From Pseudomonas urmiensis (GTDB taxonomy: Bacteria > Pseudomonadota > Gammaproteobacteria > Pseudomonadales > Pseudomonadaceae), in contig NZ_JABWRE020000001.1 in the NCBI RefSeq assembly GCF_014268815.2, forward strand, positions 2,485,001 to 2,549,000: DNA of 64,000 nucleotides, written 5' to 3'. The stretch's first letter is position 1. Each line of letters opens with the position of its first letter. Under the pieces are notes generated by a model that saw only the letters and a list, made by a program, of their open reading frames with translations, made no database searches and had not been told where the DNA came from. A program made the translations under genes and the position numbers. Of the stretch, positions 3,512 through 21,448 are shown piece after piece.

Positions 3512-3539
3512 ATATTATGGTATTCCAAACTTTTGACAA
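3512..3539 (-). promoter_or_regulatory. Predicted promoter and FCD-type operator (site 1) for NCS1 permease A
   Basis: On the minus strand, TTGTCA (3534-3539), a 16-base spacer and TAATAT (3512-3517) make a reasonable sigma70 promoter. The operator, read on the plus strand from 3513 as TATTATGGTATTCCAA, covers the spacer and -10. This is the same arrangement as in front of the ABC importer (21421-21448). A regulator bound here would block polymerase. Confidence 0.7.
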
Positions 3540-3672
3540 CACTGCACCGCCCGAAAATAACCTAACTGATCCGGTTCAGCAGCCCACCGGCAGAGCGTGA
3601 TTCTTTGGCTAAGCCACGTTTTACGCGGCCTTGCGCCGCTCATCGTGATTTTCACCAGGCGGAAAATTCCGC

Positions 3673-3704
3673 TTGCAAATCGAGTATTACGGTATACCAT
3701 CAGA
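3673..3704 (+). promoter_or_regulatory. Predicted promoter and FCD-type operator (site 2) for flavin reductase 1/monooxygenase
   Basis: TTGCAA at 3673-3678 is followed after 16 bases by TACCAT, and the operator TATTACGGTATACCATCAGA lies at 3685-3704. The same layout, TTGCA-N7-operator-CAGACA, recurs at 5613-5646 in front of the next operon. The core GGTATACC is a perfect palindrome with the GT-N2-AC form expected for GntR/FCD regulators. Confidence 0.7.
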
Positions 3705-3757
3705 CACATCAACGATAAAAAGCGGACCACCGCTACCCCTGCGAAGAGGATCACTTC

Positions 3758-4243
3758 ATGATCGACGCAACCGTCTACAAGAACGTTTTGGGTTCCTTCC
3801 CTTCCGGCGTCACTGTCATCACCACCCTGGACGACGACGGCCAGATCGTCGGCCTGACCGCCAGTGCCTTTTCCTCGCTGTCGATGGACCCGCCACTGGT
3901 GCTGTTCTGCCCCAACTACAGCTCCGACTCCTACCCGGTACTGATGCAGAAAAAGCGCTTTGCCATTCACCTGCTTTCCGGTGAACAGCAGGCTGAAGCC
4001 TATGCCTTCGCCAAAAAAGGCAAGGACAAGGCCGCCGGTATCGAGTGGACCTTGAGCGAGCTGGGCAACCCGCTGCTGGCCAATGCCACCGCCATCATCG
4101 AATGCGAGCTGTGGCGTGAATATGAAGGTGGCGACCACGCCATCATGGTTGGCAAAGTGCAGAACCTGATCGTCCCCGAGCAAGCGCCACTGCCGATGAT
4201 CTACTGCCGCGGCAAGATGGCCAGCCTGCCCGCCTTCGCCTGA
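3758..4243 (+). CDS. Flavin reductase-like protein 1 (HpaC/RutF type)
   Basis: A 161-residue NAD(P)H:flavin oxidoreductase of the flavin_Reduct family, the small component that supplies reduced FMN to two-component monooxygenases. The early block SFPSGVTVITT and the following ASAFSSLSMDPPLVLF are the flavin-binding signature. About 70% of residues match flavin reductase 2 at 8663. It is the first gene of an operon with the luciferase-like monooxygenase 95 bases downstream, its obvious partner. An AGAGGA ribosome site precedes the ATG. Transcription probably starts from the operator-bearing promoter at 3673-3704. Whether NADH or NADPH is used cannot be told. Confidence 0.92.
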   Translation: MIDATVYKNVLGSFPSGVTVITTLDDDGQIVGLTASAFSSLSMDPPLVLFCPNYSSDSYPVLMQKKRFAIHLLSGEQQAEAYAFAKKGKDKAAGIEWTLSELGNPLLANATAIIECELWREYEGGDHAIMVGKVQNLIVPEQAPLPMIYCRGKMASLPAFA

Positions 4244-4292
4244 GCGCACCTATCCTGTCGATGGGTGCCGGGCGCGCCCGTCGTGGTTTCTG

Positions 4293-4312
4293 GCGCCTGC
4301 CCAGGCAGGCGC
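4293..4312 (+). other. Perfect hairpin between flavin reductase 1 and monooxygenase genes
   Basis: GCGCCTGCC-CA-GGCAGGCGC is a 9-bp perfect stem with a two-base tip in the 95-base gap inside the operon. There is no U-run after it, so it is not a standard terminator; it could be an mRNA processing or stability element. Confidence 0.4.
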
Positions 4313-4338
4313 GACATTCAAGCTTCGAGGAAAGCCCC

Positions 4339-5382
4339 ATGAAATTTTCGTTGTTCGTGCACATGGAACGTTGGGATGAACAGGTCAGCCACCGCCAGCT
4401 GTTCGAAGACCTCACCGAACTGACCCTGATGGCCGAGGACGGCGGTTTCAGCACCGTGTGGATCGGCGAACACCACGCCATGGAATACACCATCTCGCCC
4501 AGCCCGATGCCATTGCTGGCGTACCTGGCGGCGCGCACCGAAAACATCCGCCTGGGCGCCGGCACCATCATCGCGCCGTTCTGGAATCCGATCCGGGTAG
4601 CCGGTGAATGCGCCCTGCTCGATGTGATCAGCAACGGTCGGATGGAAGTCGGCCTGGCCCGTGGCGCCTACCAGTTCGAGTTCGACCGCATGGCCAACGG
4701 CATGCCGGCTACCGACGGCGGCAAGGCCCTGCGCGAGATGGTCCCGGCGGTGCGCGAACTGTGGAAAGGCGACTATGCCTTTGAAGGTGAGGTGTACAAG
4801 TTCCCCACCTCCACCAGCGTGCCCAAGCCGGTACAGAAAGGCATGCCGCCGATGTGGATCGCCGCACGCGATCCGGATTCGCACAACTTTGCCGTGAAAA
4901 ACGGCTGCAATGTCATGGTCACCCCGCTGATGAAGGGTGACGAAGAAGTGCTGGACTTGAAGAACAAGTTCCAGGCCGCGCTGGACAACAACCCGGACGT
5001 GCCGCGCCCGCAGTTGATGGTGCTGCGCCACACCCACGTGCACAGCCCGGCGGAGCCAGACGGTTGGAAGATCGGCGCCCAAGCCATCTCGCGCTTCTAC
5101 CGCACCTTCGATGCCTGGTTCGGCAACAAGACCACCCCGGTCAATGGCTTCCTTGAGCCGAGCCCTGAGTCGAAATTCGCCGAAGTGCCCGCGTTCGAGC
5201 TGGAAAACATTCGCAAGAACACCATGATCGGCACGCCTGAAGAAATCATCGCGCGGATCAAGTACTACCAGGAACTGGGCGTCGACGAGTTCAGCTTCTG
5301 GTGTGACAACAGCCTGCCGCATGCCGAGAAGAAGAAGTCGCTGGAGCTGTTCATCAAGGAAGTGGTGCCGGCGTTCAACTGA
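4339..5382 (+). CDS. Luciferase-like (LLM class) FMNH2-dependent monooxygenase
   Basis: A 347-residue bacterial-luciferase-fold oxygenase. Typical blocks are TVWIGEHHAMEY near residue 50, RLGAGTIIAPFWNPIRVA near 85-100, and the C-terminal IGTPEEIIARIKYYQELGVDEFSFW. Enzymes of this class use FMNH2 from a partner reductase and O2 to insert oxygen, often cleaving C-N or C-S bonds or nitrogen rings. The start at the ATG after CGAGGAAAG gives a normal N-terminus (MKFSLFVHMERWD); an upstream in-frame extension would add unlikely basic sequence. It follows flavin reductase 1 and ends in a strong terminator. I regard it as the key catalytic gene of the locus; substrate unknown. Confidence 0.92.
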   Translation: MKFSLFVHMERWDEQVSHRQLFEDLTELTLMAEDGGFSTVWIGEHHAMEYTISPSPMPLLAYLAARTENIRLGAGTIIAPFWNPIRVAGECALLDVISNGRMEVGLARGAYQFEFDRMANGMPATDGGKALREMVPAVRELWKGDYAFEGEVYKFPTSTSVPKPVQKGMPPMWIAARDPDSHNFAVKNGCNVMVTPLMKGDEEVLDLKNKFQAALDNNPDVPRPQLMVLRHTHVHSPAEPDGWKIGAQAISRFYRTFDAWFGNKTTPVNGFLEPSPESKFAEVPAFELENIRKNTMIGTPEEIIARIKYYQELGVDEFSFWCDNSLPHAEKKKSLELFIKEVVPAFN

Positions 5383-5412
5383 ATTCCCATTGCCTGATTG
5401 ATTGCGGGAAGC

Positions 5413-5448
5413 GCCCGCTCCGGCTGCTGCAGGAGCGGGCATTTTTTT
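5413..5448 (+). terminator. Rho-independent terminator after the monooxygenase gene
   Basis: Stem GCCCGCTCC (5413-5421) pairs with GGAGCGGGC (5432-5440) and is followed by a run of seven T at 5442-5448, 30 bases after the monooxygenase stop codon. It separates this operon from the next one, which has its own operator. Confidence 0.88.
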
Positions 5449-5485
5449 GCGTGCTTGGCGCAGCAAGATGGCAGCGGCGGTGGAC

Positions 5486-5555
5486 TTTTCGCGGGCAAGC
5501 CCGCTCCCACAGGTCCCGCGCGCTATCCCTGTGGGAGCGGGCTTGCCCGCGAAAA
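5486..5555. repeat. Inverted REP pair (BIME)
   Basis: TTTTCGCGGGCAAGCCCGCT at 5486 and its complement ending at 5555 face each other, each being a P. putida-type REP with core GTGGGAGCGGGCTTGCCCGC. Such pairs are scattered extragenic elements in pseudomonads. Confidence 0.85.
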
Positions 5556-5612
5556 GGCTCAAGCCGACAGAGCACCTTTCATCTTCTGGGCAGAGAAATT
5601 TCCGACCACCTC

Positions 5613-5644
5613 TTGCACTACAAATATTATGGTATACCATCAGA
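5613..5644 (+). promoter_or_regulatory. Predicted promoter and FCD-type operator (site 3) for the AA_synth-hydrolase-ALDH operon
   Basis: TTGCAC at 5613-5618 is followed after 16 bases by TACCAT; the operator TATTATGGTATACCATCAGA is at 5625-5644, 35 bases before the ATG. Apart from one base in the operator it repeats the layout of site 2 at 3673-3704, including the trailing CAGACA. Confidence 0.72.
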
Positions 5645-5679
5645 CAACAAGACCTGATAACCCTTCACAGGAGCTGCCC

Positions 5680-6276
5680 ATGAGTTTCGAAATCCGCAAG
5701 ATCGTCACCTACTCCGAAGAGACCCGCATCGAAGGCGGCAAGGCCACCGACAAACCGGTGACCATGGTCGGCCTGGCCGTGGTGATCAAGAACCCGTGGG
5801 CTGGCCGCGGGTTCGTTGAAGATCTGAAGCCGGAAATCCGCGCCAACTGCTCCGAGCTGGGTGCACTGATGGTCGAGCGCCTGACCGCTGCCATCGGCGG
5901 TGCCGACAAGATCGAGGCCTACGGCAAGGCGGCGGTGGTCGGCGCCGACGGCGAAATCGAACACGCCTCGGCGGTGATCCACACCCTGCGCTTTGGCAAC
6001 CACTACCGCGAAGCGGTCCAGGCCAAGAGCTACCTGAGCTTCACCAACAAGCGCGGTGGCCCTGGCACCTCGATCCAGATCCCGATGATGCAAAAGGACG
6101 ACGAAGGCCTGCGCTCGCACTACATCACCCTGGAAATGCAGATCGAAGACGCACCGCGCGCCGACGAAATCGTCGTGGTCCTGGGCGCCGCTGACGGCGG
6201 CCGCCTGCACCCGCGCATCGGCAACCGCTATATCGACCTGGAAGAACTGGCCGCCGAGAAGGCCAACGCTCAATAA
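5680..6276 (+). CDS. DUF1185/AA_synth family protein
   Basis: A 198-residue protein of the family labelled amino acid synthesis (PF06684, formerly DUF1185), whose biochemical role I do not know; the family name should not be trusted as function. Recognisable blocks are MVGLAVVIKNPWAGRGFVEDL near residue 30, GAAVVG-like sequence near 85, and a C-terminal VVLGAADGGRLHPRIGNR. It has no signal peptide or membrane helix. It opens an operon with the alpha/beta hydrolase, aldehyde dehydrogenase and flavin reductase 2, behind operator site 3. Context suggests that it acts on an intermediate of the flavin-dependent pathway, perhaps a hydrolytic or isomerising step. The AGGAG site six bases before the ATG supports this start. 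Confidence 0.85.
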   Translation: MSFEIRKIVTYSEETRIEGGKATDKPVTMVGLAVVIKNPWAGRGFVEDLKPEIRANCSELGALMVERLTAAIGGADKIEAYGKAAVVGADGEIEHASAVIHTLRFGNHYREAVQAKSYLSFTNKRGGPGTSIQIPMMQKDDEGLRSHYITLEMQIEDAPRADEIVVVLGAADGGRLHPRIGNRYIDLEELAAEKANAQ

Positions 6277-6336
6277 CAACAACCAGAAGCGCTGGGGCAT
6301 TGCCTGCAAGCCCCGGCCTTCAAGGAGCGCCCCACC

Positions 6337-7170
6337 ATGATTCAGCCTGTTGCTGAACGTACACCGGCCGGGACCAGTTACCTGAGCCAAGGCCAGGGCC
6401 AGCCTGTGGTGCTGATCCACGGCGTGGGCCTGAACAAGGAAATGTGGGGTGGGCAGTTCGTCGGCCTGGCCAACGACTACCGAGTCATCGCCTACGACAT
6501 GCTCGGCCACGGCCAGAGCCACCTGCCTGCCGCTGACACACCGCTGGAAGGCTACGCCGCGCAATTGGCCGAATTGCTCGATCATTTGCAGATTACTCAA
6601 GCCACCGTGATCGGTTTTTCCATGGGTGGCCTGGTCGCCCGCGCCTTTGCCCTGAACTACCCGCAGCGATTGTCCGCGCTGGTAGTGCTCAATAGCGTCT
6701 TCAACCGCACCCCAGAGCAGAGCGCAGGGGTTATCGCCCGCGCCGCCCAGGCGGCTGAGCAAGGGCCGGACGCCAACGTCGATGCCGCCCTGGACCGCTG
6801 GTTCAGCCGCGAATACAAGGCCGCCAACCCGGCCCAGGTCGCGGCGATTCGCCAGGTCCTGGCCAGCAACGACCCCCAGGGTTACCACACCACATACTCG
6901 CTGTTCGCCACTCAGGACATGTATCGCGCAGACGACCTGGGCACGATCCAGGTACCGACCCTGATCGCTACCGGCGAGCTCGACCAAGGTTCGACCCCGG
7001 CCATGACCCGCCAGCTCGCCGCGCGCATTCCCGGTGCGCACAGCGTGGTCCTCGCCGAACAACGGCATATGATGCCGGTAGAAGCGCCGCGCGAAGTCAA
7101 CAAGATGCTGCTGGACTTCCTCAGGCAAGCCCGCACCCTCACCGAATCCGCCAAGGGGATTGTTGCATGA
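6337..7170 (+). CDS. Alpha/beta hydrolase (RutD/PcaD-like)
   Basis: A 277-residue alpha/beta-hydrolase. The oxyanion motif VLIHGVG lies near residue 25, the nucleophile elbow GFSMGG gives S95, the acid is probably D216 (TGELDQGS) and the histidine H244 (EQRHMMP). Relatives hydrolyse enol-lactones (PcaD), aminoacrylate or carbamate (RutD) and ester or amide intermediates. It overlaps the ALDH start by four bases (ATGA), so the two are translationally coupled. In this operon it probably hydrolyses an amide, formamide or lactone released by the oxygenase step. Confidence 0.9.
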   Translation: MIQPVAERTPAGTSYLSQGQGQPVVLIHGVGLNKEMWGGQFVGLANDYRVIAYDMLGHGQSHLPAADTPLEGYAAQLAELLDHLQITQATVIGFSMGGLVARAFALNYPQRLSALVVLNSVFNRTPEQSAGVIARAAQAAEQGPDANVDAALDRWFSREYKAANPAQVAAIRQVLASNDPQGYHTTYSLFATQDMYRADDLGTIQVPTLIATGELDQGSTPAMTRQLAARIPGAHSVVLAEQRHMMPVEAPREVNKMLLDFLRQARTLTESAKGIVA

Positions 7171-8648
7171 CCCTCGTTCGTTTCCAGATGTGCATCGACG
7201 GCCAATGGCGCGATGCCCAGAGCGGCAAGACCTTCGACAGCCTCGATCCGGCGACCGCCCAGGCCTGGGCGCAACTGCCCGATGCCGATGAAGGCGACGT
7301 CGAACTGGCCGTACAAGCAGCCCAGCGCGCCTTCGACAGTCAAACCTGGCGTGGCCTTAGCGCCACGGCACGGGGCAAGCTGCTGCGCCGCCTGGGTGAC
7401 TTGATTGCCGAAAACAAAGAGCACCTGGCCCAGCTGGAAAGCCGCGATAACGGCAAGCTGATCCGCGAAACCCGCGGCCAGGTCGGTTATCTGCCAGAGT
7501 TCTTCCACTACACCGCAGGCCTGGCCGACAAGCTCGAAGGCGGCACCCTGCCGCTGGATAAACCCGACCTGTTCGCCTACACCGTGCACGAGCCAATGGG
7601 CGTGGTTGCCGGGATCATTCCCTGGAACAGCCCGCTGTACCTGACCGCGATCAAGCTGGCCCCGGCCCTGGCAGCGGGTAACACCATCGTCCTCAAGCCG
7701 TCCGAGCACGCCTCGGCGACCATCCTCGAGCTAGCCCGCCTGGCCCTGGAAGCCGGCTTCCCGCCGGGTGTGGTCAACGTGGTGACCGGTTACGGCCCAA
7801 GCACCGGCGCTGCCCTCACCCGCCACCCGCTGATCCGCAAGATCGCCTTCACAGGCGGCGCCGCCACAGCCCGTCACGTGGTGCGCAGCAGCGCCGAGAA
7901 CTTCGCCAAGCTGTCGCTGGAGCTGGGCGGCAAGTCGCCGAACATCATCTTCGCCGACGCGGACCTGGACAGCGCCATCAATGGCGCCGTAGCCGGCATC
8001 TATGCCGCCTCCGGGCAAAGCTGCGTGGCCGGCTCGCGCTTGCTGGTGCAAGACGAGATCTTCGATGAATTCGTCGAGCGGCTGATCGAACGCGCCAAGC
8101 GCATCCGCATCGGCAACCCGCAGGACGAGCTCAGCGAAATGGGCCCGATGGCCACCGCCCAGCAACTGGCCGTGGTCGAAGGCCTGGTCGCGGCGGCCAA
8201 CGCCGAGGGCGCCAAGCTGCGCATGGGCGGCAAGCGTGCCGAGGTCGAGGGTGAAGGCTGGTTCTATGAGCCGACCCTGTTCGAGTGCGACAGCAACTCG
8301 ATGAAGATCATGCAGGAAGAGGTGTTCGGCCCGGTCGCGGCGGTGATTCGCTTCAAGACTGAGCAAGAGGCCTTGGCGATAGCCAACGACTCGCAGTTTG
8401 GCCTGGCCGCCGGCATCTGGACTCGCGACCTGGGCCGCGCCCACCGCCTGGCCCGCGATGTACGTTCAGGGATCATCTGGGTCAACACCTACCGCGCAGT
8501 CTCGGCCATGGCGCCGATTGGCGGCTTCAAGAACAGCGGCTATGGCCGCGAGAGCGGCATCGATTCGGTGCTCGCTTACACCGAGCTGAAGACTGTGTGG
8601 ATCAACCTGTCCACCGCGCCGATGCCCGATCCTTTCGTGATGCGCTAA
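7167..8648 (+). CDS. NAD(P)-dependent aldehyde dehydrogenase
   Basis: A complete 493-residue ALDH. It has the cofactor-site block IIPWNSPLYL (N154), the general base E252 in LELGGKSPNI, and the catalytic cysteine C286 in ASGQSCVAGSR, with the C-terminal GGFKNSGYGRE. All key residues are present. Aldehyde dehydrogenases accompany luciferase-type ring-opening oxygenases in the pyridine and trigonelline pathways, where the opened ring carries an aldehyde, which makes the combination here meaningful. It is coupled to the hydrolase upstream, and flavin reductase 2 follows after 14 bases. Confidence 0.94.
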   Translation: MTLVRFQMCIDGQWRDAQSGKTFDSLDPATAQAWAQLPDADEGDVELAVQAAQRAFDSQTWRGLSATARGKLLRRLGDLIAENKEHLAQLESRDNGKLIRETRGQVGYLPEFFHYTAGLADKLEGGTLPLDKPDLFAYTVHEPMGVVAGIIPWNSPLYLTAIKLAPALAAGNTIVLKPSEHASATILELARLALEAGFPPGVVNVVTGYGPSTGAALTRHPLIRKIAFTGGAATARHVVRSSAENFAKLSLELGGKSPNIIFADADLDSAINGAVAGIYAASGQSCVAGSRLLVQDEIFDEFVERLIERAKRIRIGNPQDELSEMGPMATAQQLAVVEGLVAAANAEGAKLRMGGKRAEVEGEGWFYEPTLFECDSNSMKIMQEEVFGPVAAVIRFKTEQEALAIANDSQFGLAAGIWTRDLGRAHRLARDVRSGIIWVNTYRAVSAMAPIGGFKNSGYGRESGIDSVLAYTELKTVWINLSTAPMPDPFVMR

Positions 8649-8662
8649 GAGGGCCTGCCAAG

Positions 8663-9148
8663 ATGATCGAACCTGGCATCTACAAAGACGTGATGGGCTC
8701 GTTCCCCTCCGGGGTCACGGTAGTAACCACCCTGGACGCCGACGGCGGCATCGTCGGCATCACCGCCAGCGCCTTCAGCGCGCTGTCGATCGAACCGGCG
8801 CTGGTGCTGTTCTGCCCCAACTACGCCTCGGACACCTACCCGATCCTGCGCGACAGCAAGCAATTCGCCATCCACTTGCTGTCTGCCGAACAGACGGCCG
8901 AGGCCTATGCCTTTGCCGGCAAGGGCAAGGACAAGGCCAAAGGCGTTCAATGGCACCTGAGCGAGCTGGGCAATCCGCTGCTGAGCAAGGCTACGGCGAT
9001 CATCGAGTGCGAGCTGTGGCGCGAGTACGACGGCGGTGACCACGCGATCATCGTCGGCGCGGTGAAGAACCTGGTGCTGCCGGCCGAGCCGGTGACGCCG
9101 ATGGTCTACCACAAAGGCAAGCTGGGCGCCCTGCCCCCACTTGGCTGA
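8663..9148 (+). CDS. Flavin reductase-like protein 2
   Basis: A 161-residue flavin reductase with SFPSGVTVVTT and ASAFSALSIEPALVLF, nearly collinear with flavin reductase 1 (same length, about 70% identical by eye). The ATG at 8663, 14 bases after the ALDH stop, restores the same N-terminus as copy 1 (MIxPxIYKxVxGSFPSG); an in-frame start further upstream lies inside the ALDH gene. It gives the locus a second FMNH2 source in the operon that lacks a monooxygenase, so either both feed the single oxygenase or the copy serves another enzyme elsewhere. Confidence 0.92.
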   Translation: MIEPGIYKDVMGSFPSGVTVVTTLDADGGIVGITASAFSALSIEPALVLFCPNYASDTYPILRDSKQFAIHLLSAEQTAEAYAFAGKGKDKAKGVQWHLSELGNPLLSKATAIIECELWREYDGGDHAIIVGAVKNLVLPAEPVTPMVYHKGKLGALPPLG

Positions 9149-9160
9149 TCGACCTTTGAG

Positions 9161-9311
9161 TCGGCGGTGGCTTTTTCGCGGGCAAGCCCGCTCCCACAGG
9201 GATCGCACAGATCCCAAGTTCTGTGAAGTACCTGTGGGAGGGATCACGCAGATCCCAACTTCTGTGAAGTACCTGTGGGAGCGGGCTTGCCCGCGAAAAA
9301 GCCACCGCCGA
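9161..9311. repeat. Long perfect inverted repeat built on REPs, with internal direct repeat
   Basis: Bases 9161-9200 are an exact 40-base inverted copy of 9272-9311, each containing a REP core and extending well beyond it (GGCGGTGGC arms). Inside, a 40/41-base unit containing CTGTGAAGTACCTGTGGGAG is present twice in tandem (about 9201-9240 and 9241-9281) with a few differences. It separates the flavin reductase 2 gene from the next gene. Confidence 0.85.
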
Positions 9312-9384
9312 TGACCCTGTTTTTAGGGGCCGCGCTACCCTCTCACCAATGGTTGCTGCCCCTGTTTTGATTCGGAGCTAGACA

Positions 9385-9774
9385 ATGAGCAACGAAAAGT
9401 ACGAGAAAGGCCTGCAGATTCGCACCCAGGTGCTGGGCGAGGACTACGTCAAGCGCTCGATCGAAAACGCCGACGAGTTCACCCAGCCGCTCCAGGAGCT
9501 GGTTACCGAGTACTGCTGGGGCCATGTCTGGGGCCGCGATGGCTTGTCGCGCAAAGAGCGCAGCATGATAAACTTGGCCATGATTTCCGCGCTCAACCGG
9601 CCCCACGAGCTCAAGCTGCATATCCGCGGCGCACTGCGCAATGGCCTGAGCCGAGAACAGATTCGCGAGATCCTGCTCCAGGTCGGCATTTACTGCGGCG
9701 TGCCCGCGGCGGTGGACAGCTTCCGCCTGGCCCGCGAAGCGTTCGCCGAAGCCGACACGGAGTCAACCCGTTAA
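9385..9774 (+). CDS. Carboxymuconolactone decarboxylase (CMD) family protein
   Basis: A 129-residue PcaC-like protein. The conserved stretch EYCWGHVWGRDGLSRKERSM, then ALNRPHELKLHIRGALRNG and the C-terminal ILLQVGIYCGVPAAVDSFR, match 4-carboxymuconolactone decarboxylase. It lacks the CxxC of peroxidase-active AhpD types. Lying in the catabolic locus and just before the GntR gene, it may decarboxylate a pathway intermediate rather than serve the protocatechuate route, since no other pca gene is present. A CGGAG ribosome site precedes the ATG. A REP-rich gap splits it from the upstream operon, so it may be transcribed separately. Confidence 0.88.
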   Translation: MSNEKYEKGLQIRTQVLGEDYVKRSIENADEFTQPLQELVTEYCWGHVWGRDGLSRKERSMINLAMISALNRPHELKLHIRGALRNGLSREQIREILLQVGIYCGVPAAVDSFRLAREAFAEADTESTR

Positions 9775-9864: not shown

Positions 9865-10617
9865 ATGAAACGCCAGCCACTCGACGACAGCTTCAAGGTC
9901 AACCGCAACCCAGTCACCCTGCGTGAAATCGTGCTCGATAAACTGCGCGGGGCGATCATGAACTTCCACCTGCTGCCCGGCGACCGCCTGGTCGAGCGCG
10001 ACCTCTGCGACCGCCTCGGCGTCAGCCGCACCTCGGTGCGTGAAGCCCTGCGCCACCTGGAATCCGAAGGCCTGGTCGAATTCGCCGACGCCAAAGGGCC
10101 GCGCGTGGCGATCATCACCCTGGAAGACGCCTGCGACATCTACGAGCTGCGCTGCGTGCTCGAAGGGCTGATCGTCCAGCTGTTCACCCTCAATGCCAAG
10201 GCCAAGGACATCCGCGCCCTGGAGCGCGCCCTGGAGGTGAACCGCGAGGCACTGGAAGAAGGCGAGCTGCAGCAAGTGCTCGAATCGGTGCAAGGCTTCT
10301 ATGACGTGCTGCTGGAAGGTTCCGGCAACCGCGTCGCCGCCACCCAGCTGCGTCAGCTGCAAGCACGCATCAGCTACCTGCGCGCCACCTCGGTGTCGCA
10401 GGCCAATCGTCGTGGTGCCAGCAACCAGGAAATGGAAAAGATCGTCGCGGCGATCAAGAGCGGCGACCCGCAAGCGGCGCACCAAGCCTCGGTCGACCAC
10501 GTACGCGCCGCCGCCAAGGTCGCGCTGGACTACCTGCGCCAGAAGCAGGATGACAACGCCAAGGTGCGCGAAATCATCGAGCCCCTGGTCCTGAAGGACC
10601 CTCGCATAGGCCGCTAA
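9865..10617 (+). CDS. GntR family regulator, FCD subfamily
   Basis: A 250-residue one-component regulator. The N-terminal winged helix shows REIVLDKLRGAIMNFHLLPGD, RLVERDLCDRLGVSRTSVREAL and LESEGLVEF, and the C-terminal all-helical FCD ligand domain begins near ACDIYELRCVLEG. FCD regulators typically repress catabolic operons and are released by a pathway metabolite; they bind palindromes of GT-Nx-AC form. The repeated TGGTATACCA sites in this window have that form and flank the genes around it, so this is the best candidate regulator. It follows the CMD gene by 90 bases. Confidence 0.93.
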   Translation: MKRQPLDDSFKVNRNPVTLREIVLDKLRGAIMNFHLLPGDRLVERDLCDRLGVSRTSVREALRHLESEGLVEFADAKGPRVAIITLEDACDIYELRCVLEGLIVQLFTLNAKAKDIRALERALEVNREALEEGELQQVLESVQGFYDVLLEGSGNRVAATQLRQLQARISYLRATSVSQANRRGASNQEMEKIVAAIKSGDPQAAHQASVDHVRAAAKVALDYLRQKQDDNAKVREIIEPLVLKDPRIGR

Positions 10618-10619
10618 GC

Positions 10620-11183
10620 ATGCCCAACGCCCCGCGCTATTGCCCGCACTGCACCACAGAGCTTGCCCGGGGCGTTCCCACTGGCGATACCCACGAACGC
10701 CTGCACTGCACTGGCTGCGGTTACATTCACTACATCAACCCGAAGATCATCGCCGGCTGCATCATCGAACGCGATGGCAAGTACCTGTTGTGCCAGCGCG
10801 CCATTCCCCCGCGCCCTGGCACCTGGACCTTGCCGGCGGGCTTCATGGAAGCGGGTGAAACCACCGAACAGGCGGCGCTGCGTGAAGTGTGGGAAGAAAG
10901 CGGCGTGCATGCCGAAATCGTCTCGCCCTACTCGATCTTCAGCGTGGCCAAGATCAGCGAGGTGTACATCATCTTTCGCGCCATCGCCACGCAGGAGACT
11001 GGCCAGTTCGGGCCGGAGACGCTTGCCTACAAGTTCTTCGAACCTGATGAGATCCCCTGGGATGAGATCTACTACCCGGCGATTCGGCAGATCCTCGAGC
11101 GCTATATCCTTGAGCGGCAGGCGGGGGTGTATGGGATCTACATGGGCAATGACGACACCGGCAAGGTGCATTTCATTCGCTGA
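10620..11183 (+). CDS. Nudix hydrolase with N-terminal zinc ribbon
   Basis: A 187-residue protein. Two CxxC pairs (YCPHCT and LHCTGCGY) make a zinc ribbon, followed by the Nudix box GFMEAGETTEQAALREVWEESGV-type sequence, complete in its G, E and REVWEE residues. Relatives hydrolyse NADH, ADP-ribose or other nucleoside diphosphate derivatives. It starts two bases after the GntR stop codon, so it is probably co-transcribed with it, although the same gene occurs in other genomic settings as a stand-alone housekeeping enzyme. Substrate not assigned. Confidence 0.88.
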   Translation: MPNAPRYCPHCTTELARGVPTGDTHERLHCTGCGYIHYINPKIIAGCIIERDGKYLLCQRAIPPRPGTWTLPAGFMEAGETTEQAALREVWEESGVHAEIVSPYSIFSVAKISEVYIIFRAIATQETGQFGPETLAYKFFEPDEIPWDEIYYPAIRQILERYILERQAGVYGIYMGNDDTGKVHFIR

Positions 11184-11279
11184 TCTGTGCACTGCCCGCA
11201 CTGCCAACACAAATCTCTCGCCAGCAAGCCAATCTCAGGGCACCCTTATCACTCCCTGATGCAAGGACCAGCAAACCCC

Positions 11280-13451
11280 ATGGCGAAATGGTTGGAAGGC
11301 GGCGGATCCATGGCCGAGCGAATCCGCAACCACGACTGGCCAGCCACCCCGCTCGGCCCGCTCGAGTCCTGGCCAGACGTGCTCAAGACCACCGTAGCAC
11401 TGTGCCTGGGCTCACATTTTCCGCAGGCCGTGCTCTGGGGCGATGAGCTGATCACCCTGCACAACGATGCCTTCAGCGCGATTCTCGGCGAAAAACCCTT
11501 AGCCCTGGGGCGGCCATTCAGCGAGGTGTGGCAGGAAGCCTGGAGCGACATCAAGGCGATGGCCGACCGCGCGCTGGCAGGCGAAGCGGTGTTCATCGAG
11601 AATTTTCCGCTGCTGATCAACCGCAGCGATGGTCCGGAGCGGGCCTATTTCACCTTCTGCTACAGCCCCATCCGCGATCAGTATGGGCAGATCGTCGGCA
11701 TGATCGACACGGTAACGGAAACCACTGCCACCGTAGTTGCCAACCAGCGCCTGAACTTCCTCGACAATCTCAGCCGCGCCCTGGCCGATGCCAATGACCC
11801 CGATCGGATCATGGCCACCACCACCGGTATGCTGGTCGAGCACCTGCGCCTGTCCAGTTGCGCCTACGCGGTAATGGACGCCGACCAGGACGGTTTCACC
11901 ATCTGTGGTGACGCGGTAGCGCCAGGTTCACCACGCCTGGTCGGACAATACCGCCTGGCCGATTTCGGCACCCTGGCGGTCAAGCAACTGCGCGCCGGCT
12001 TGCCGCTGGTGATCAACGACAACCTCAATCAGCTCGAACCGCAGGAAGCGGCGACCTTCCAGGCCATCGGCATCACCGCGACCATCTGCATGCCGCTGAT
12101 CAAGGAGGGTCGGTTGACCGCGCTAATGGCCATCCATGACCGAGTACCGCGCCAGTGGACCAGCTATGAACAAGCGTTGATCAGCGAAGTGACCGAGCGC
12201 TGCTGGGCGCATATTCAACGCGTCCAGGCCTACGCCGAAGTGCGCGAGACGGCGGCTGCGCTGGAGGCGCTGAACGCCACCCTGGAGCATCGCGTACAGG
12301 AGCGTACCGAGCAGTTGCTGCACACCGAGGCGATGCTGCGCCAGACCCAGAAGCTGGAAGCCATCGGCCAGCTGACCGGCGGCGTTGCCCATGACTTCAA
12401 CAACCTGCTGACCATCATCCGCTCATCCCTGCACTTTCTGCAGCGCCCGGATCTGGACGACAACCGCCGCCAGCGCTACCTCAAGACCATGGCCGACACC
12501 GTCGATCGCGGCGCCAAGCTCACCGGTCAGCTGCTCGCCTTCGCTCGCCGCCAAGCGCTCAGCCCGCAGGTGTTCGACGCCGGGCCAAGGCTGCAAGGCA
12601 TGGCGGAAATGCTCGATACCGCCACCGGGGCGCGCATCCAGGTCAGCCTGGAACTGCCCGAGTCGCCCTGCTACATCCGCGCCGACCTTGGCCAGTTGGA
12701 AACAGCGCTCATCAACCTGATGATCAATGGCCGCGATGCCATGGCCGGCGAAGGCACCCTGCACTTGCGCCTGGTTGCCGACCAACGCATGCCCGGCGCA
12801 CCCGGGCGCTTTGCAGCGATTTCGGTGAGCGACAGTGGCGTGGGGATTGCTCCTGAACTGCTTGAGCGCATTTTCGATCCGTTCTTCACCACCAAGGCTG
12901 CGGGCGAAGGGACGGGGCTTGGCTTGTCCCAGGTGTTTGGCTTCGTCAAGCAATCGGGCGGTGATGTGCAGGTGAACAGTGTTGCCGGCCAAGGCACCAC
13001 GTTTACCCTGTACCTGCCCCAGGAAAGCGCGGCAGATTCGCCGCAAACCGCCCTGCCGAGCAGTGCCCCTGTGGCCCTGGCCGGCAGCAGCAAACGGCGC
13101 ATCCTGGTGGTCGAGGACAACGCCGATGTCGGCAGTTTCACCACCCAGATGCTCAAGGAGCATGGCTATCAGGTCAGTTTGGCGCTTTGCGCCGAGGATG
13201 CCCTGGCGCAATTGAGTGGCGCCCAGGGACAGTTCGATGCGGTGTTCTCTGATGTAGTGATGCCCGGCATGGGCGGCCTGGCCTTGGCCAAGGAGCTGCG
13301 TCGCAGCCGCCCACAGACGCCAGTGATCCTCACCTCTGGCTACAACGAGGCCATGGCTGAAGGGGGGCATCAGGGCTTCGCGTTCCTGGCCAAGCCCTAT
13401 TCGGCCGAGCAGGTGTGCCAACTGCTGGAAAAAGTGCTGGGGGCCGCCTGA
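11280..13451 (+). CDS. Hybrid sensor kinase: PAS-GAF-HisKA-HATPase-receiver
   Basis: About 723 residues with no membrane helix. Order: PAS-like domain (from [17 protein letters not shown]), GAF domain, coiled coil, HisKA with the phosphohistidine in [11 protein letters not shown], HATPase with DPFFTTK and GTGLGLSQV, and a receiver whose phospho-aspartate is in FSDVVMPGM. The receiver is C-terminal and there is no output domain, so signal must pass to another protein. The start is uncertain: ATG 11280 or 11259 are both possible and AAGGA lies before the former. It converges on a second kinase of the same layout. Confidence 0.88.
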
Positions 13452-13454
13452 GTC

Positions 13455-15665: not shown

Positions 15666-15845
15666 TTCATCCTGACCATCGGTTGCCCTAGGCACAGTGC
15701 CATCTACCTGATGGATAAGAAATCAGAGAACGCCAGACGTTCCGCTGGGCTCAACAGTTAGTTGTCGACAGCCAATACGCCAGCGATAGATGTCGCCCCA
15801 GGGGGCTGCCTTGCAGCCCATCGCAGGCTGCGCCAGCGCCTACCG

Positions 15846-16460: not shown

Positions 16461-16571
16461 TTGAGTCTTCCTTCAGATCAGCTTTGGATGAAGAAAGATT
16501 ACGGATATCGCCGAGGGATTTTCTTTCGTATATTCCCTCCCTGCGAACAATTACTGGAAGATTCTTCCCCA

Positions 16572-17024
16572 ATGGACAGAACCGATCGCAAGATCCTTGC
16601 CGAGCTGCAACAAGACGGTCGCTTGTCGGTAACCGACCTGGCCGAGCGCGTCGGCTTGAGCCTCTCGCCCTGCCATCGACGCTTGAAAGCACTGGAGGAA
16701 TCTGGCGCCATTGTGGGCTATCACGCACGCTTGGCGCCGGCGGCGCTAGGCTTGAACTTCGCCGCGTTGGTCTTCGTGACCTTGCGCGAAGTCACCCGCC
16801 AGCCGGTGGCGGACTTTGAAGCGGCGCTGGCGCAGATTCCGCAGATCGTCGAGGCGCAGCGCTTGTTTGGCGATCCGGACTACCTGCTGCATGTGGTAGC
16901 GCGTGATCTCCCGGCGTTTCAGAAACTCTATGACGAGCAGTTGACCAGCATCCCCAACGTCAAGCGGCTGAGCTCGACGCTGGTGATGAAAGAAGTGATT
17001 CAGGATCGATTGTTGCCAATGTAG
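16572..17024 (+). CDS. Lrp/AsnC family regulator
   Basis: A 150-residue regulator: helix-turn-helix (MDRTDRKILAELQQDGRLSV, then AERVGLSLSPCHRRLKALEE) plus a RAM ligand domain with the GDPDYLLHVV motif. The ATG start gives the typical N-terminus, with the divergent LysE-type exporter next door as its probable target. An in-frame stretch upstream has no Lrp-like sequence and was not included. Confidence 0.93.
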   Translation: MDRTDRKILAELQQDGRLSVTDLAERVGLSLSPCHRRLKALEESGAIVGYHARLAPAALGLNFAALVFVTLREVTRQPVADFEAALAQIPQIVEAQRLFGDPDYLLHVVARDLPAFQKLYDEQLTSIPNVKRLSSTLVMKEVIQDRLLPM

Positions 17025-17368
17025 TTGGCAGCTGCACGGCTTGTGTCGACTGCCAGCGAAAGGCCCGCCCAAACCCGCTTTTTACTCGCCCTCTGAGCGT
17101 GCAGTGCGCACCAACACGGCTCACTGCGTGCTGACGCCAACCCGCTTGAAGCCCCAACCCCGTGGCCTTCAGCCCGGTGGCCCGTTCCTTGCTGCCAGCG
17201 ACCTCTTAACCTTTTGTCAGCCTTAGGTTTTTTAAGGTTCATGAGCACATATTTACTAATTTCTCGATCCCTGCGCACCCCGCATCATCCCTCCAACAAG
17301 AACGCGTCGCCCCTTGCCGGCACGCACCCGGGCACTCCCCCGTGCCCCACCTTGCCTTGGAGTCAGTC
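17025..17368. other. Intergenic gap before NCS1 permease B
   Basis: About 340 bases without a convincing gene. TTGTCA at about 17216 and an AT-rich stretch to 17260 may hold the permease promoter. I found no copy of the TGGTATACCA operator here, in contrast to NCS1 permease A. Confidence 0.4.
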
Positions 17369-18781
17369 ATGACCAGTGCAGCCAACTCGGCACCTCTAAT
17401 AGAAAAACACACGATCGGCTACGTGCCCCCGCAAGACCGCCATGGAAAGGTAAGGGATCTGTTCACCCTGTGGTTCGGCGGCAACATCGCGCCCCTGCCC
17501 ATCGTCACTGGCGCCCTGGGCGTGCAGTTGTTTCATCTGAACCTGGTGTGGGGCATCGTCGCCATCCTGGTCGGTCATCTGCTCGGAGGCGTGCTGATGG
17601 CGCTGCACTCGGCGCAAGGCCCGCAGATGGGCATTCCCCAGATGATCCAGAGCCGCGCCCAGTTCGGCTCGCTCGGCGCGTTGCTGGTGGTGGTCATCGC
17701 TGGGGTGATGTACATCGGCTTCTTCGCCTCCAACATCGTCCTGGCCGGCAAGTCGCTGCATGGGGTCGCCGAGTCGGTTCCAGTGCCGGTCGGTATCGTG
17801 ATCGGTGCGCTGGGCTCGGGCATCATCGGCATCATCGGCTACCGCTTCATCCACGTGCTCAACCGCATTGGCACCTGGGTCCTGGGGGTCGGCATCGTGG
17901 TCGGTTTTGGCTACATCTTCAGCCATGTCCAGAGCGATGATTTCCTCACCCGTGGCGGTTTCAACCTCGCCGGCTGGCTGGCCACCGTATCGCTGGCGGC
18001 GCTGTGGCAGATCGCCTTCGCGCCGTATGTGTCGGATTACTCGCGCTACCTGCCGGCAGACGTGAAGGTGTCGTCGACGTTCTGGACCACCTACCTGGGC
18101 TCGGCCCTGGGTTCGAGCCTGTCGTTCGTGTTCGGCGCGGTGGCGGTGCTGGCGATCCCGGCGGGCATGGACACCATGGACGCCGTCAAACTCGCCACCG
18201 GCGCAATTGGCCCGTTGATGCTGGTGCTGTTCCTGCTCAGCGTGATCAGCCACAACGCCCTCAACCTGTATGGCGCAGTGCTGTCGATCATTACCCTGAT
18301 CCAGACCTTCGCTTATCGCTGGATCCCGACCGCAAAGAGCCGCGCGGTGCTGTCGCTGATCGTCCTGGCCGCCTGCTGCGTGGTGGCGGTGTTCGCCTCG
18401 GCGGACTTCATCGGCCACTTCGTCGATATGGTCCTGGTGCTGCTGGTCGTGCTGGTGCCGTGGACGGCGATCAACCTGATCGACTTCTATGTGATCCACA
18501 AGGGCGACTACGACATCGACTCGATCTTCAAGGTCGATGGCGGCATCTACGGGCGCTACAACCCGCAGGCACTGATCGCCTATGCCGTGGGCATCGTGGT
18601 GCAGATCCCATTCATGAACACGCCGCTGTATGTCGGGCCGGTAGCCGAGCACATCAACGGCGCCGATCTGTCGTGGCTGGTGGGCCTGGCGATCACCTCG
18701 CCGTTGTACTGGTGGCTGGCCAGCCGCGACAGTGCCTATCGCCGTCGGCAGACCAGCGCCAAACTGGCAGCGGCAGCCTGA
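17369..18781 (+). CDS. NCS1-family permease (copy B)
   Basis: A 470-residue, about 12-helix permease, strongly similar to copy A over the whole length (DLFTLWFGGNIAPLPIVTGA, GIPQMIQSRAQFG, APYVSDYSRYLP, SINLIDFY-like block). The ATG after TTGGAG gives an N-terminus matching copy A (IEKHTIGYVPPQDRHGKVRD). It stands alone, with a LysR gene downstream on the other strand and no shared operator, so it may import a related compound under different control. Substrate class nucleobase or similar; not resolved. Confidence 0.9.
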   Translation: MTSAANSAPLIEKHTIGYVPPQDRHGKVRDLFTLWFGGNIAPLPIVTGALGVQLFHLNLVWGIVAILVGHLLGGVLMALHSAQGPQMGIPQMIQSRAQFGSLGALLVVVIAGVMYIGFFASNIVLAGKSLHGVAESVPVPVGIVIGALGSGIIGIIGYRFIHVLNRIGTWVLGVGIVVGFGYIFSHVQSDDFLTRGGFNLAGWLATVSLAALWQIAFAPYVSDYSRYLPADVKVSSTFWTTYLGSALGSSLSFVFGAVAVLAIPAGMDTMDAVKLATGAIGPLMLVLFLLSVISHNALNLYGAVLSIITLIQTFAYRWIPTAKSRAVLSLIVLAACCVVAVFASADFIGHFVDMVLVLLVVLVPWTAINLIDFYVIHKGDYDIDSIFKVDGGIYGRYNPQALIAYAVGIVVQIPFMNTPLYVGPVAEHINGADLSWLVGLAITSPLYWWLASRDSAYRRRQTSAKLAAAA

Positions 18782-18846
18782 TAGAGACAGCACCTGCGCG
18801 CTCCCACAACCCCGCTCTGACGCGCCACAGCGCGATGCACGACGGG

Positions 18847-18880
18847 GCCTCTGTGGGAGCGGGCTTGCCCGCGAAGAGGC
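18847..18880. repeat. Single REP palindrome
   Basis: CCTCTGTGGGAGCGGGCTTG followed by CCCGCGAAGAGG folds into a stem between the 3' ends of permease B and the LysR gene; it may also serve as the end hairpin of both transcripts. Confidence 0.75.
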
Positions 18881-18893
18881 CGGCACAGGCAAC

Positions 18894-19778
18894 CTATAGC
18901 CGCCCCAAGCGCTCACGCAAAAACGCCACGAACGCCTGCACCGGCCGGGCCACTTGCCGGTGCTGTGGGTACACCGCCGACAGCTGCAGCGCTGGCGGTG
19001 TCCACGGCTCCAGCAGTGCGACCAACCTGCCCTCTGCCAATGCCCGCTCGACGATGAACGCTGGCAGATAGGTAATGCCCATCCCGGCAATCGCCGCATC
19101 CCTGAGCAGCTCGCCATTGTTCGCGCGCATTCGCCCCGTCACCGCAATGGCCAGGGCCTTGCCCTGATGCTTGAACTGCCACTGCACCTGCCGTGCATGC
19201 CCATAAGGCAGGCAATCATGCTCACGCAGCGCTTCAGGCACTGCTGGCGTGCCGCGTCTCGCCAGATAATCGGGGCTTGCGCAGTAGACCCGTTCGATAT
19301 CGGCAATCCGCCGCGCAATCAGACTGGAATCCTCCAAGCTACCAATGCGCAGTGCCAGGTCATAGCCCTCGCCAATCAGGTCCACCGCCCGGTCACTCAG
19401 GTCGACTTCGACGTCCAGTTGCCGATGCAGTTGCAAGAACTCCGTCAATAAACAGCCCAGATGGCTCATGGCGAATGACAGCGGCGCACTCAAGCGCAAG
19501 GTGCCACGCAACGCCTGGGTCTGGCCGCTGATGTCTTGCTCGACCTGCTGCACTTCGCTGAGCAAACGCAAGGCCGACTGGTAGTACTGCTGGCCCAATG
19601 GCGTGGCATCCAGACGCCGCGTCGAACGGTTGAGCAGGCGCACGCCCAGGCGCTCTTCGAGTTGCATCACGCGGCGGCTGACGAACTGCTTGGACAGCCC
19701 CAGGCGCTCGGCAGCGGCGGTGAAGCTGCCGGCTTCCATGACCTGGGCAAAAATACGCATGTCTTCGTAAGGGTTCAT
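18894..19778 (-). CDS. LysR-type regulator
   Basis: A 294-residue LTTR with the HTH ASFTAAAERLGLSKQFVSRRVMQLEERLGVRLLNRSTR and a C-terminal effector domain (SMDVEVDL-like and ALRIGSLEDSSLIAR blocks) of the CrgA-like branch. It faces away from the DUF1330 gene upstream and converges with permease B. Its target is unknown; it might control permease B, but their 3' ends, not promoters, face each other. Confidence 0.9.
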   Translation of the reverse strand: MNPYEDMRIFAQVMEAGSFTAAAERLGLSKQFVSRRVMQLEERLGVRLLNRSTRRLDATPLGQQYYQSALRLLSEVQQVEQDISGQTQALRGTLRLSAPLSFAMSHLGCLLTEFLQLHRQLDVEVDLSDRAVDLIGEGYDLALRIGSLEDSSLIARRIADIERVYCASPDYLARRGTPAVPEALREHDCLPYGHARQVQWQFKHQGKALAIAVTGRMRANNGELLRDAAIAGMGITYLPAFIVERALAEGRLVALLEPWTPPALQLSAVYPQHRQVARPVQAFVAFLRERLGRL

Positions 19779-19910
19779 TGTCGCTATCCAGTTGACAGTG
19801 AACGCTTTATACCGGCTTTTCCCTAGCGAGGCAGCTGCCTAATCCCTGCACAGCTGGCAGCGCTGGCCCTAACGCCAGGCAAGCCACCTGAACGGCATGC
19901 GAGTAGCGAG

Positions 19911-20201
19911 TCAATCTACCCCTTCGACGATGATCACCTCAGCCGTCGCCACCCCCTGGCGATGGCAGCAGGCCTGTTGATACTCGGCCGAGCGATAGCA
20001 GGCCAGCGCCTGTTCATACGACTCGAACTCAATGACCACACTGCGCTGCGGGGTTGGTCGCCCTTCCAGCGCTTCGCTACGCCCGCCCCGCGCCAGCAAC
20101 CGCCCGCCATACGCCTGGAACGCCGCCGGTGCGCGCTGGGTGTATTGCTGGTACTGCTCAGGATCGGTCACATCGACATGGGCAATCCAATAGGCCTTCA
20201 T
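19911..20201 (-). CDS. DUF1330 protein
   Basis: A 96-residue dimeric alpha/beta-barrel (ferredoxin-like) protein of the DUF1330 family: starts MKAYWIAHVDVTDPEQY, central GGRLLARGG, and VIEFESYEQALACYRS. Function of the family is unknown. Its promoter region is shared, divergently, with ribB, and operator site 4 (20232-20251) lies 30 bases from its start codon, so it belongs to the predicted regulon. It may act on a small pathway metabolite. Confidence 0.85.
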   Translation of the reverse strand: MKAYWIAHVDVTDPEQYQQYTQRAPAAFQAYGGRLLARGGRSEALEGRPTPQRSVVIEFESYEQALACYRSAEYQQACCHRQGVATAEVIIVEGVD

Positions 20202-20231
20202 CCACTGCTCTCCTGTCTTCAGGTATTTGTG

Positions 20232-20251
20232 TATTATGGTATACCATAAAA
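20232..20251. promoter_or_regulatory. FCD-type operator (site 4) between DUF1330 gene and ribB
   Basis: TATTATGGTATACCATAAAA is the most symmetric of the five sites: ATTATGGTATACCAT plus the flanks reads almost alike on both strands. It lies between two divergent start codons (20201 and 20279) and could control both. I see no clean -35 here. Confidence 0.72.
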
Positions 20252-20278
20252 ATCAAACCACCACAGCGAGCGTGCAGC

Positions 20279-21400
20279 ATGGCTTTCAACAGCATCGAAG
20301 AACTACTCGAGGACTACCGGCAAGGCAAGATGGTCCTGCTGGTGGATGACGAAGACCGTGAGAACGAAGGCGATCTGTTGATCGCCGCCGAACACTGCGA
20401 CGCCGCCGCCATCAACTTCATGGCCCGCCAGGCGCGTGGGCTGATCTGCCTGACCTTGACCGACGAGCACTGCCAACGGCTGGGCCTGGAGCAGATGGTG
20501 CCAAGCAACGGCAGCGCCTTCAGCACTGCCTTTACCGTGTCGATCGAGGCTGCCAGCGGCGTCACCACCGGCATCTCGGCGGCCGATCGCGCCCGCACCG
20601 TGGCTGCCGCCATGGCGCCCAACGCGCGGCCTGAGGACCTGGTCCAGCCGGGGCATATCTTCCCCCTACGCGCCCGTGAAGGCGGCGTACTGACCCGTGC
20701 CGGGCATACCGAAGCGGGTTGCGACCTGGCCCGCCTGGCCGGTTTCAGCCCGGCCTCGGTGATCGTCGAGGTGCTCAACGATGACGGCAGCATGGCCCGC
20801 CGCCCGGACCTGGAGGTGTTCGCCGCCCAGCACGGGATCAAGATCGGCACCATCGCCGACTTGATCCACTACCGGTTGAGCACCGAGCAGACCATCAAAC
20901 GCATCGGCGAACGTGAACTGCCGACGGTGCATGGCACCTTCCGCCTGGTGACCTACGAGGACCGCATCGAGGGCGGGGTGCACATGGCCATGGTGATGGG
21001 CGAGATCCGTCGCGAACAGCCAACCCTGGTGCGCGTGCATGTGATCGACCCGCTGCGTGACCTGGTCGGCGCCGAGTACGCCGGGCCGGCCAACTGGACC
21101 CTGTGGGCGGCGCTGGAGAAGGTCGCCGACGAGGGTGCGGGGGTGGTGGTGATCCTGGCCAATCACGAGTCTTCCCAAGCCCTGTTGGAGCGGGTGCCGC
21201 AACTGACCCAGCCGGTGCGTGCGTATCAGCGTGGGCAATCGAAGGTGTACTCGGAGGTCGGCACCGGGGCGCAGATTCTGCAGGACCTGGGCGTGGGCAA
21301 GCTGCGTCACCTGGGGCCGCCGCTCAAGTATGCGGGGCTGGCGGGGTATGAACTGGAGGTGGTGCAGAGCATCCCGTTCGAGCCTGCAATTACAGGGTGA
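20279..21400 (+). CDS. ribB: 3,4-dihydroxy-2-butanone-4-phosphate synthase with degenerate GTP cyclohydrolase II domain (RibB-RibX type)
   Basis: A 373-residue flavin-synthesis protein. Residues 1-205 form a complete RibB domain ([17 protein letters not shown]-like [26 protein letters not shown]). The C-terminal half aligns with GTP cyclohydrolase II but lacks the C-x10-C-x-C zinc ligands: the equivalent stretch reads [20 protein letters not shown] with no cysteine. It is therefore predicted to make 3,4-DHBP but not to open GTP, as described for RibBX proteins of proteobacteria. Pseudomonas usually has another ribB in its main riboflavin operon, so this copy is probably a second one, induced with the FMN-dependent catabolic genes through operator site 4. 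ATG 20279 was chosen because upstream sequence is intergenic. Confidence 0.92.
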
Positions 21401-21420
21401 TGGCCGGTCGCCCAGAGTGC

Positions 21421-21448
21421 TTGCCAAAATCTTGGAATACCATAATAT
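21421..21448 (+). promoter_or_regulatory. Predicted promoter and FCD-type operator (site 5) for the ABC importer
   Basis: TTGCCA (21421-21426), 16 bases, TAATAT (21443-21448), with the operator CTTGGAATACCATAATA overlapping spacer and -10. Read on the other strand it is TATTATGGTATTCCAAG, sharing 18 consecutive bases with site 1 of NCS1 permease A and the same promoter geometry. Confidence 0.72.

Follow-up and report, generated by a model that had tools for sequence, protein, structure and literature searches.

Comparison with described systems

Trigonelline (N-methylnicotinate) is degraded in Acinetobacter baylyi ADP1 by the tgn gene cluster, reportedly described by Perchat et al. in 2018. 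The cluster encodes a luciferase-like monooxygenase with a flavin reductase, an aldehyde dehydrogenase, a hydrolase, and a DUF1185 protein. Genes of the same kinds are found in a stretch of 64,000 nucleotides from Pseudomonas urmiensis (NCBI RefSeq assembly GCF_014268815.2, contig NZ_JABWRE020000001.1, positions 2,485,001 to 2,549,000), the whole of which is called the window here. The window also contains a gene for a GntR/FCD regulator and five copies of an operator upstream of transport, catabolic, and flavin-synthesis genes. We propose, with a probability of about 0.7, that this local FCD protein is a repressor that jointly controls uptake, ring opening, a downstream operon, and a 3,4-dihydroxy-2-butanone 4-phosphate (DHBP) synthase for the use of a pyridinium betaine.

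A tgn-type locus of Acinetobacter baumannii resembles the window further in possessing an FCD regulator and the operator with one mismatch. The window differs from tgn in having a second flavin reductase, and in having the DHBP-synthase gene and an ATP-binding cassette (ABC) importer under the operator. Its operon is without a second aldehyde dehydrogenase, and its monooxygenase is 50% identical to the Acinetobacter enzyme named by NCBI. The Rut pyrimidine pathway also opens an N-heterocycle with a flavin monooxygenase and its reductase, together with a hydrolase and a nucleobase-type permease, and its regulator, RutR, is of the TetR type. All four components have counterparts in the window, but the window hydrolase and reductases score far below the cut-offs for RutD and RutF.

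On the regulatory side, the UxuR, HpxS, MdcY, and PrpR regulons share with the window an FCD regulator and a TKGT-N2-ACMA palindrome (main text of PMC4494728). The FadR-subfamily regulons presented in that text differ from the window in substrate class and gene content, and it nowhere uses the words trigonelline, riboflavin, or monooxygenase. Trigonelline catabolism genes on pSym of rhizobia are attributed to Goldmann 1991 in a passage of PMC6297676. The loci of Sinorhizobium, Agrobacterium, and Mesorhizobium in our comparison (L197, L144, and L158) contain, as the window does, DUF1185, hydrolase, reductase, monooxygenase, and dehydrogenase genes, and also an operator-like site, an FCD gene, and an ABC importer. 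TgnR is mentioned, with no explanation in the passage concerned, in a metagenome paper (PMC13408031), and the literature matches listed contained nothing on the present regulator. Compared with the literature short of the 2018 tgn paper, the kind of regulon is already known, whereas this member, its breadth, and its flavin coupling appear to be new.

Operator sites in the window and in the genome

An earlier note on this DNA had claimed five copies of a motif, each within about 140 bases of a start codon, and no other copy in 64 kb. The motif TATTATGGTATWCCAW is present at all five places, four copies being exact and one, at 3685, having a single mismatch (TATTAC).

Operator 1: 3513..3528, plus strand, TATTATGGTATTCCAA, upstream of the NCS1 permease gene
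Operator 2: 3685..3700, plus strand, TATTACGGTATACCAT (1 mismatch), upstream of the flavin reductase 1 and monooxygenase genes
Operator 3: 5625..5640, plus strand, TATTATGGTATACCAT, upstream of the DUF1185 operon
Operator 4: 20232..20247, plus strand, TATTATGGTATACCAT, between the divergent DUF1330 and RibBA-like genes
Operator 5: 21432..21447, minus strand, TATTATGGTATTCCAA, upstream of the ABC importer genes

The gaps between the sites and the start codons, as read from the sequence, are 30–139 bp over all five operators, in agreement with the earlier note. They are 74 bases for the NCS1 permease, 57 for the flavin reductase, 39 for DUF1185, 30 for DUF1330 and 31 for the RibBA-like gene on the two sides of operator 4, and 139 for the ABC binding protein, whose start was chosen by us after a likely ribosome site. 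When up to three mismatches are allowed, the window gives eight matches and no sixth place (shuffled sequences: mean 0.10, maximum 1), so the absence of a further copy holds to that limit. That eight matches fall at only five places is due to the palindromic nature of the core, whose best form is ATGGTATACCAT, of the type TGGT-N2-ACCA. The boxes read TGGT-AT-ACCA at operators 3 and 4 and TGGT-AT-TCCA at operators 1 and 5, and one side of operator 2 reads CGGT. The FadR-subfamily consensus is TKGT/ACMA with a GT–AC distance of 2 or 3, the 2-nt spacing being known for UxuR, HpxS, and others (main text of PMC4494728). The five-site operator fits this form with 2-nt spacing, and the assignment of the GT-N2-AC palindrome as a GntR/FCD-type site agrees with it to that extent.

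In the own genome (5.79 Mb), the five window sites are the only places within one mismatch; the motif is therefore not distributed at a random genome-wide frequency, occurring at this stringency only within the regulon. The core alone, ATGGTATWCCAW, has exact matches only at four of the five places. The next-best candidates have two mismatches (C1:3051355 and C2:15426), and at up to three mismatches there are 23 matches versus 14 for the reversed control, 3 of the 23 being the second strand of the window palindromes. These weaker matches look like noise.

Co-occurrence of regulator and operator within the genus

The genus sample comprised 119 genomes, which are related, so the co-occurrence counts do not represent independent events. 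DUF1185 matches were found in 72 genomes, 65 of which were counted as having orthologs (at least 86% identity, plus one 81% fragment); seven genomes with only 38–56% identical paralogs were excluded. FCD orthologs (E 1e-60 or better) are present in the same 65 genomes. The core pattern TNATGGTATWCCATNA occurs in 63 of the 119 genomes and its reversed control in none. It is found in 62 of the 65 genomes with FCD and DUF1185 but in only 1 of the 54 others; thus, in a motif scan of related Pseudomonas genomes, the operator tracks the FCD regulator. In the three genomes with the cluster and no strict core pattern (G001, G043, and G080), DUF1185 is preceded by variant sites. In G076, the FCD gene matches as two overlapping pieces (G076:C145:11710-12458), possibly owing to a frameshift or an assembly error. 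A single exact 16-mer in a distant genome (G151) was judged to be a chance match; for the shorter core at one mismatch, the controls gave 75 and 59 matches versus 84 and 82 for the real pattern.

Operators 1 and 5 are identical in sequence, as are operators 3 and 4, and such identity would fit promoter elements that were simply repeated, or copies that recombination had spread, with no common regulator. This origin is very improbable, since the core is found in only one of the 54 genus genomes without FCD and the site columns are more conserved than their flanks (mean information 0.89–1.97 bits versus 0.27–0.91, a comparison that is partly circular because the sites were selected by the motif).

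Co-occurrence beyond the genus

At the order level, 11 of 390 genomes contain the monooxygenase (E 1e-100 or better). Among the 10 genomes besides the window's own, two of which belong to the genus, 9 have both an FCD homolog (37–89% identity) and a site with at most one mismatch; neither was found in the tenth (G396). A scan with the Psychrobacter monooxygenase gave at least 570 relatives, of which the best 80 were kept, and together with the Acinetobacter locus 81 loci of other genera were examined. These loci are not independent, as thirteen are from Psychrobacter and many from Rhizobiaceae. To be accepted, a site had to lie no more than 250 bp ahead of DUF1185 and have at most two mismatches, G being an additional permitted base at position 12. 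On this basis, the operator is present in all 53 scorable loci with FCD, and no scorable locus has FCD without a site. The 24 loci without FCD include 22 that lack the operator too and 2 that have it. The rest are two loci with no DUF1185 match (one of them, L135, with FCD) and two cut by contig ends. With sixty permutations of the motif, the count for the 53 loci averaged 0.02 and never exceeded 1. Most of the Rhodobacteraceae loci are in the group with neither FCD nor site, and the regulator and operator co-occur over alpha-, beta-, and gammaproteobacterial loci. The view of the earlier note, that a single FCD/GntR regulon couples a catabolic operon to both flavin synthesis and two transporters, is therefore supported in silico (62/65 versus 1/54 in the genus; 53/53 versus 2/24 outside it).

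In this genome the FCD gene is not adjacent to sites 4 and 5, and the sites might instead be bound by another regulator, such as the LysR protein encoded at 18894-19778 or an unlinked protein, with FCD being a mere neighbor. We regard this as improbable, since FCD follows the operator across the 119 genomes and 81 loci, is divergent from or within the controlled operon in other loci, and belongs to a family whose FadR-subfamily form the operator has. Furthermore, in compact clusters (e.g., L054–L057, L067, and L068) the DUF1330–RibBA pair adjoins Nudix–FCD, with no ortholog of the window LysR matched between them.

Association of the operator with scattered genes

We compared 60 regions of the genus genomes. 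The 35 regions with a site away from the DUF1185 operon (15 + 20), hand-picked for such a site among the matches listed, all have regulon genes at that site (35/35). Where the genes are dispersed across the genome, the operator goes with them. The RibBA–ABC block still has its sites in G057, where it is 143 kb away, and in G003, where the distance is about 940 kb. In the loci seen, a monooxygenase gene separated from reductase 1 is provided with a site of its own (L091–L093, L099, L100, and L109). A BCCT betaine transporter gene has an upstream site in L063 and L052, and in four of the five loci with a matched start.

Seventy loci, picked by gene or by site, and the window together give 169 merged sites, 167 of which are upstream of a matched gene start, though this is not an unbiased rate. 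The other two are one inside a Psychrobacter monooxygenase gene and one (L082) near the end of the fetched stretch, with no start matched. Counted by gene over loci with a matched start, a site is found upstream of NCS1 in 24 of 25 (within 300 bp, window included), DUF1185 in 31 of 33, DUF1330 in 36 of 38, the RibBA-like gene in 36 of 37, and the ABC binding protein in 32 of 33. Since these per-gene counts mix flavin reductase 1 with reductase 2 and the two binding proteins through paralog cross-matches, none is used for reductase 1. Many relatives likewise have the TATTAC variant ahead of flavin reductase 1.

A chemoreceptor gene adjoins the monooxygenase gene in L092, L093, L099, L100, and L109, its product being 32–35% identical to an HBM-domain receptor of L063. 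In the sole locus with a matched receptor start, the site is 123 bp away. The chemoreceptor may be part of the regulon, for chemotaxis to the substrate.

Regulator protein and promoters

The window FCD protein was compared with 13 distant partners chosen by hand. The DNA-binding part shows 55–85% identity and the FCD part 23–53%, which is consistent with recognition of a shared operator but not decisive, as DNA-binding parts generally diverge less.

In aligned upstream regions of DUF1185, NCS1, and ABC, a CTTG upstream of the site is conserved. The DUF1185 promoters appear by eye to have TTGCA and, 16 bp after that hexamer, TACCAT; the NCS1 and ABC promoters have TTG with TAATAT at the same spacing. 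For reductase 1 the alignment script mostly took the neighboring NCS1 site, and its promoter is left out of this comparison. In our reading, the operator overlaps or adjoins the presumed −10 region or the spacer, suggesting repression. The FCD protein might instead activate, or both activate and repress, and the site orientation relative to the gene does vary by unit: it is opposite in NCS1 (24/24) and ABC (31/32), where the script favored opposite-strand matches, and the same in the luciferase-like monooxygenase (12/12) and DUF1185 (23/29), reductase 1 having no count. Either alternative is nevertheless unlikely, as a dimer bound over the −10 region or spacer would block the polymerase.

Genes at the locus

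Gene families were assigned with Pfam and NCBIfam, which place the ABC importer in the polyamine type.

2035..3438, minus strand: NCS1-family permease, probable substrate uptake (PF02133)
3758..4243, plus strand: flavin reductase 1, TgnA-like (PF01613)
4339..5382, plus strand: luciferase-like monooxygenase, TgnB-like (PF00296)
5680..6276, plus strand: DUF1185/AA_synth protein, TgnF-like (PF06684, E 7.7e-72)
6337..7170, plus strand: alpha/beta hydrolase, candidate for the TgnD role (PF00561)
7167..8648, plus strand: aldehyde dehydrogenase, candidate for the TgnC role (PF00171)
8645..9148, plus strand: flavin reductase 2, start not settled, scanned from 8597 (PF01613)
9385..9774, plus strand: carboxymuconolactone-decarboxylase (CMD)-family protein (PF02627)
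9865..10617, plus strand: GntR/FCD regulator, proposed repressor of the five sites (PF00392, E 3.3e-17; PF07729, E 1.6e-24)
10620..11183, plus strand: Nudix hydrolase, conserved in synteny beside the regulator gene (PF00293)
19911..20201, minus strand: DUF1330 protein (PF07045)
20279..21400, plus strand: RibBA-like protein, third DHBP-synthase gene (PF00926 and PF00925)
21587..22612, plus strand: ABC importer solute-binding protein (PF13416)
22597..23526, plus strand: ABC importer permease, start not settled (PF00528)
23533..24342, plus strand: ABC importer permease (PF00528)
24362..25510, plus strand: ABC importer ATPase (PF00005 and PF08402)

The Nudix gene is followed by that of a hybrid histidine kinase (11187-13451), which has GAF and PAS domains; the operator was found within 300 bp upstream of the kinase gene in none of six loci with a matched start. 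A Nudix–flavin reductase fusion in Psychrobacter, suggested by a weak tblastn match, was rejected, as Pfam shows only the flavin reductase domain in the 303-residue protein and three relatives.

Pathway and substrate

The pathway, to which the earlier note gave no name, resembles the ring cleavage of trigonelline in Acinetobacter. TgnAB is described as ring-opening (passage of PMC8269262), TgnB as a luciferase-family enzyme (passage of PMC11354265), and TgnF as homologous to a DUF1185-family protein (passage of PMC7913881). The window DUF1185 protein, with its PF06684 match, corresponds to TgnF in this respect. The aldehyde dehydrogenase and alpha/beta hydrolase are placed as candidates beside TgnC and TgnD, the dehydrogenase and hydrolase that act after ring opening, on its product.

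Five of the 120 listed monooxygenase homologs, at 74–81% identity, are labeled by JGI as flavin-dependent trigonelline monooxygenase, oxygenase component; the other names among them are general ones. The monooxygenase of the Acinetobacter locus (L199) shares 94% identity with a protein bearing the NCBI name trigonelline monooxygenase. This locus matches in FCD, DUF1185, hydrolase, reductase, monooxygenase, dehydrogenase, NCS1, a second aldehyde dehydrogenase, CMD, and DUF1330, and it has two operator sites, each with one mismatch. Its record (NZ_CP104448.1, Acinetobacter baumannii, 4.09 Mb) is of chromosome size yet labeled a plasmid. The window NCS1 and CMD proteins are 57% and 76% identical to those of the Acinetobacter locus. 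Among the matches listed, the window monooxygenase (4339-5382) is 74–79% identical to actinobacterial proteins (Streptomyces, Nocardia, Rhodococcus, and others), and its being nearer to these than to the Acinetobacter enzyme suggests gene transfer.

Given the regulon, trigonelline is probably the substrate. The same FCD regulon might instead serve another pyridinium or N-heterocyclic betaine, such as homarine or N-methylnicotinamide, as 50% identity of the monooxygenase to the NCBI-named enzyme allows a shift and the transporter set varies among genomes (NCS1, BCCT, and ABC). We consider such a shift unlikely, though less so than the regulatory alternatives, because of the JGI names and the NCS1 and CMD identities; for homarine, moreover, a marine study judged it an unlikely substrate of TgnAB (passage of PMC8269262).

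Proposed link to flavin synthesis

Besides the window copy, the own genome contains two DHBP-synthase genes, with 59% and 45% identity to it. The flavin mononucleotide (FMN) riboswitch (RF00050) has one match in the genome, C1:4354663, about 110 bp before the 45% gene. Because this sole riboswitch precedes the 45% copy, the window gene is without riboswitch control and has the operator instead. A C-x(8-12)-C-x-C stretch, presumably the zinc site of GTP cyclohydrolase II, was not found in the window RibBA-like protein nor in the 59% paralog, and for this reason the RibBA-like protein probably acts as a DHBP synthase (RibB) alone. A RibBA-like gene with the operator also occurs outside the family, in G312 (L111). 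The RibBA-like gene of G007 (L083) may be broken, its match being in two pieces.

Proposed mechanism

We infer the following mechanism. The GntR/FCD protein (9865-10617) would be a local repressor, whose dimer binds ATGGTATACCAT-type palindromes that overlap the core promoter of each unit downstream. Its release would be brought about by a pyridinium betaine, trigonelline or one of its breakdown intermediates being the most likely. Release would allow joint synthesis of the uptake systems (the NCS1 permease and the ABC importer), the two-component ring-opening flavin monooxygenase, the products of the downstream operon, and a DHBP synthase not subject to the FMN riboswitch, which would raise the flavin supply for the monooxygenase.

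Several observations weigh against this proposal. One core site is found in G099, where neither FCD nor DUF1185 was found; no 16-mer within one mismatch was detected there. Two of the loci outside the genus (L152 and L177) have the site with no FCD found, and at the order level control matches at one mismatch occur once each in G248, G478, and G242. The FCD gene has no operator of its own within 300 bp in 29 of 31 loci; therefore, any autoregulation would run via the operon. As for the pathway, the window monooxygenase shares only 50% identity with its NCBI-named Acinetobacter counterpart, and the substrate may therefore be another N-methylpyridinium. No TgnD-type name is found among the 120 listed hydrolase homologs. 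A second aldehyde dehydrogenase, the candidate for succinate-semialdehyde dehydrogenase (SSADH)/TgnE, is absent from the window's operon, the rest of the own genome not having been searched; it is present in the operons of several relatives (L063, L052, L112, L113, and L115) and in L199.

Implications

We lean, by a small margin of confidence, toward the view that the FCD repressor with the TGGTATACCA operator is an ancestral, mobile control of pyridinium-betaine ring cleavage in alpha-, beta-, and gammaproteobacteria, to which Pseudomonas and near relatives would have added a riboswitch-free DHBP-synthase gene, so that the substrate raises the flavin supply for its monooxygenase. The extra DHBP-synthase gene in some pseudomonads would then be explained as that of a catabolic pathway dependent on free reduced flavin and equipped with its own flavin supply, outside riboswitch feedback. 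Transporter and enzyme genes that are distant from the cluster but have the operator are likely members of the pathway. The finding would provide a regulator, an operator, and a gene list for the widespread use of a probable plant and coffee betaine as food.

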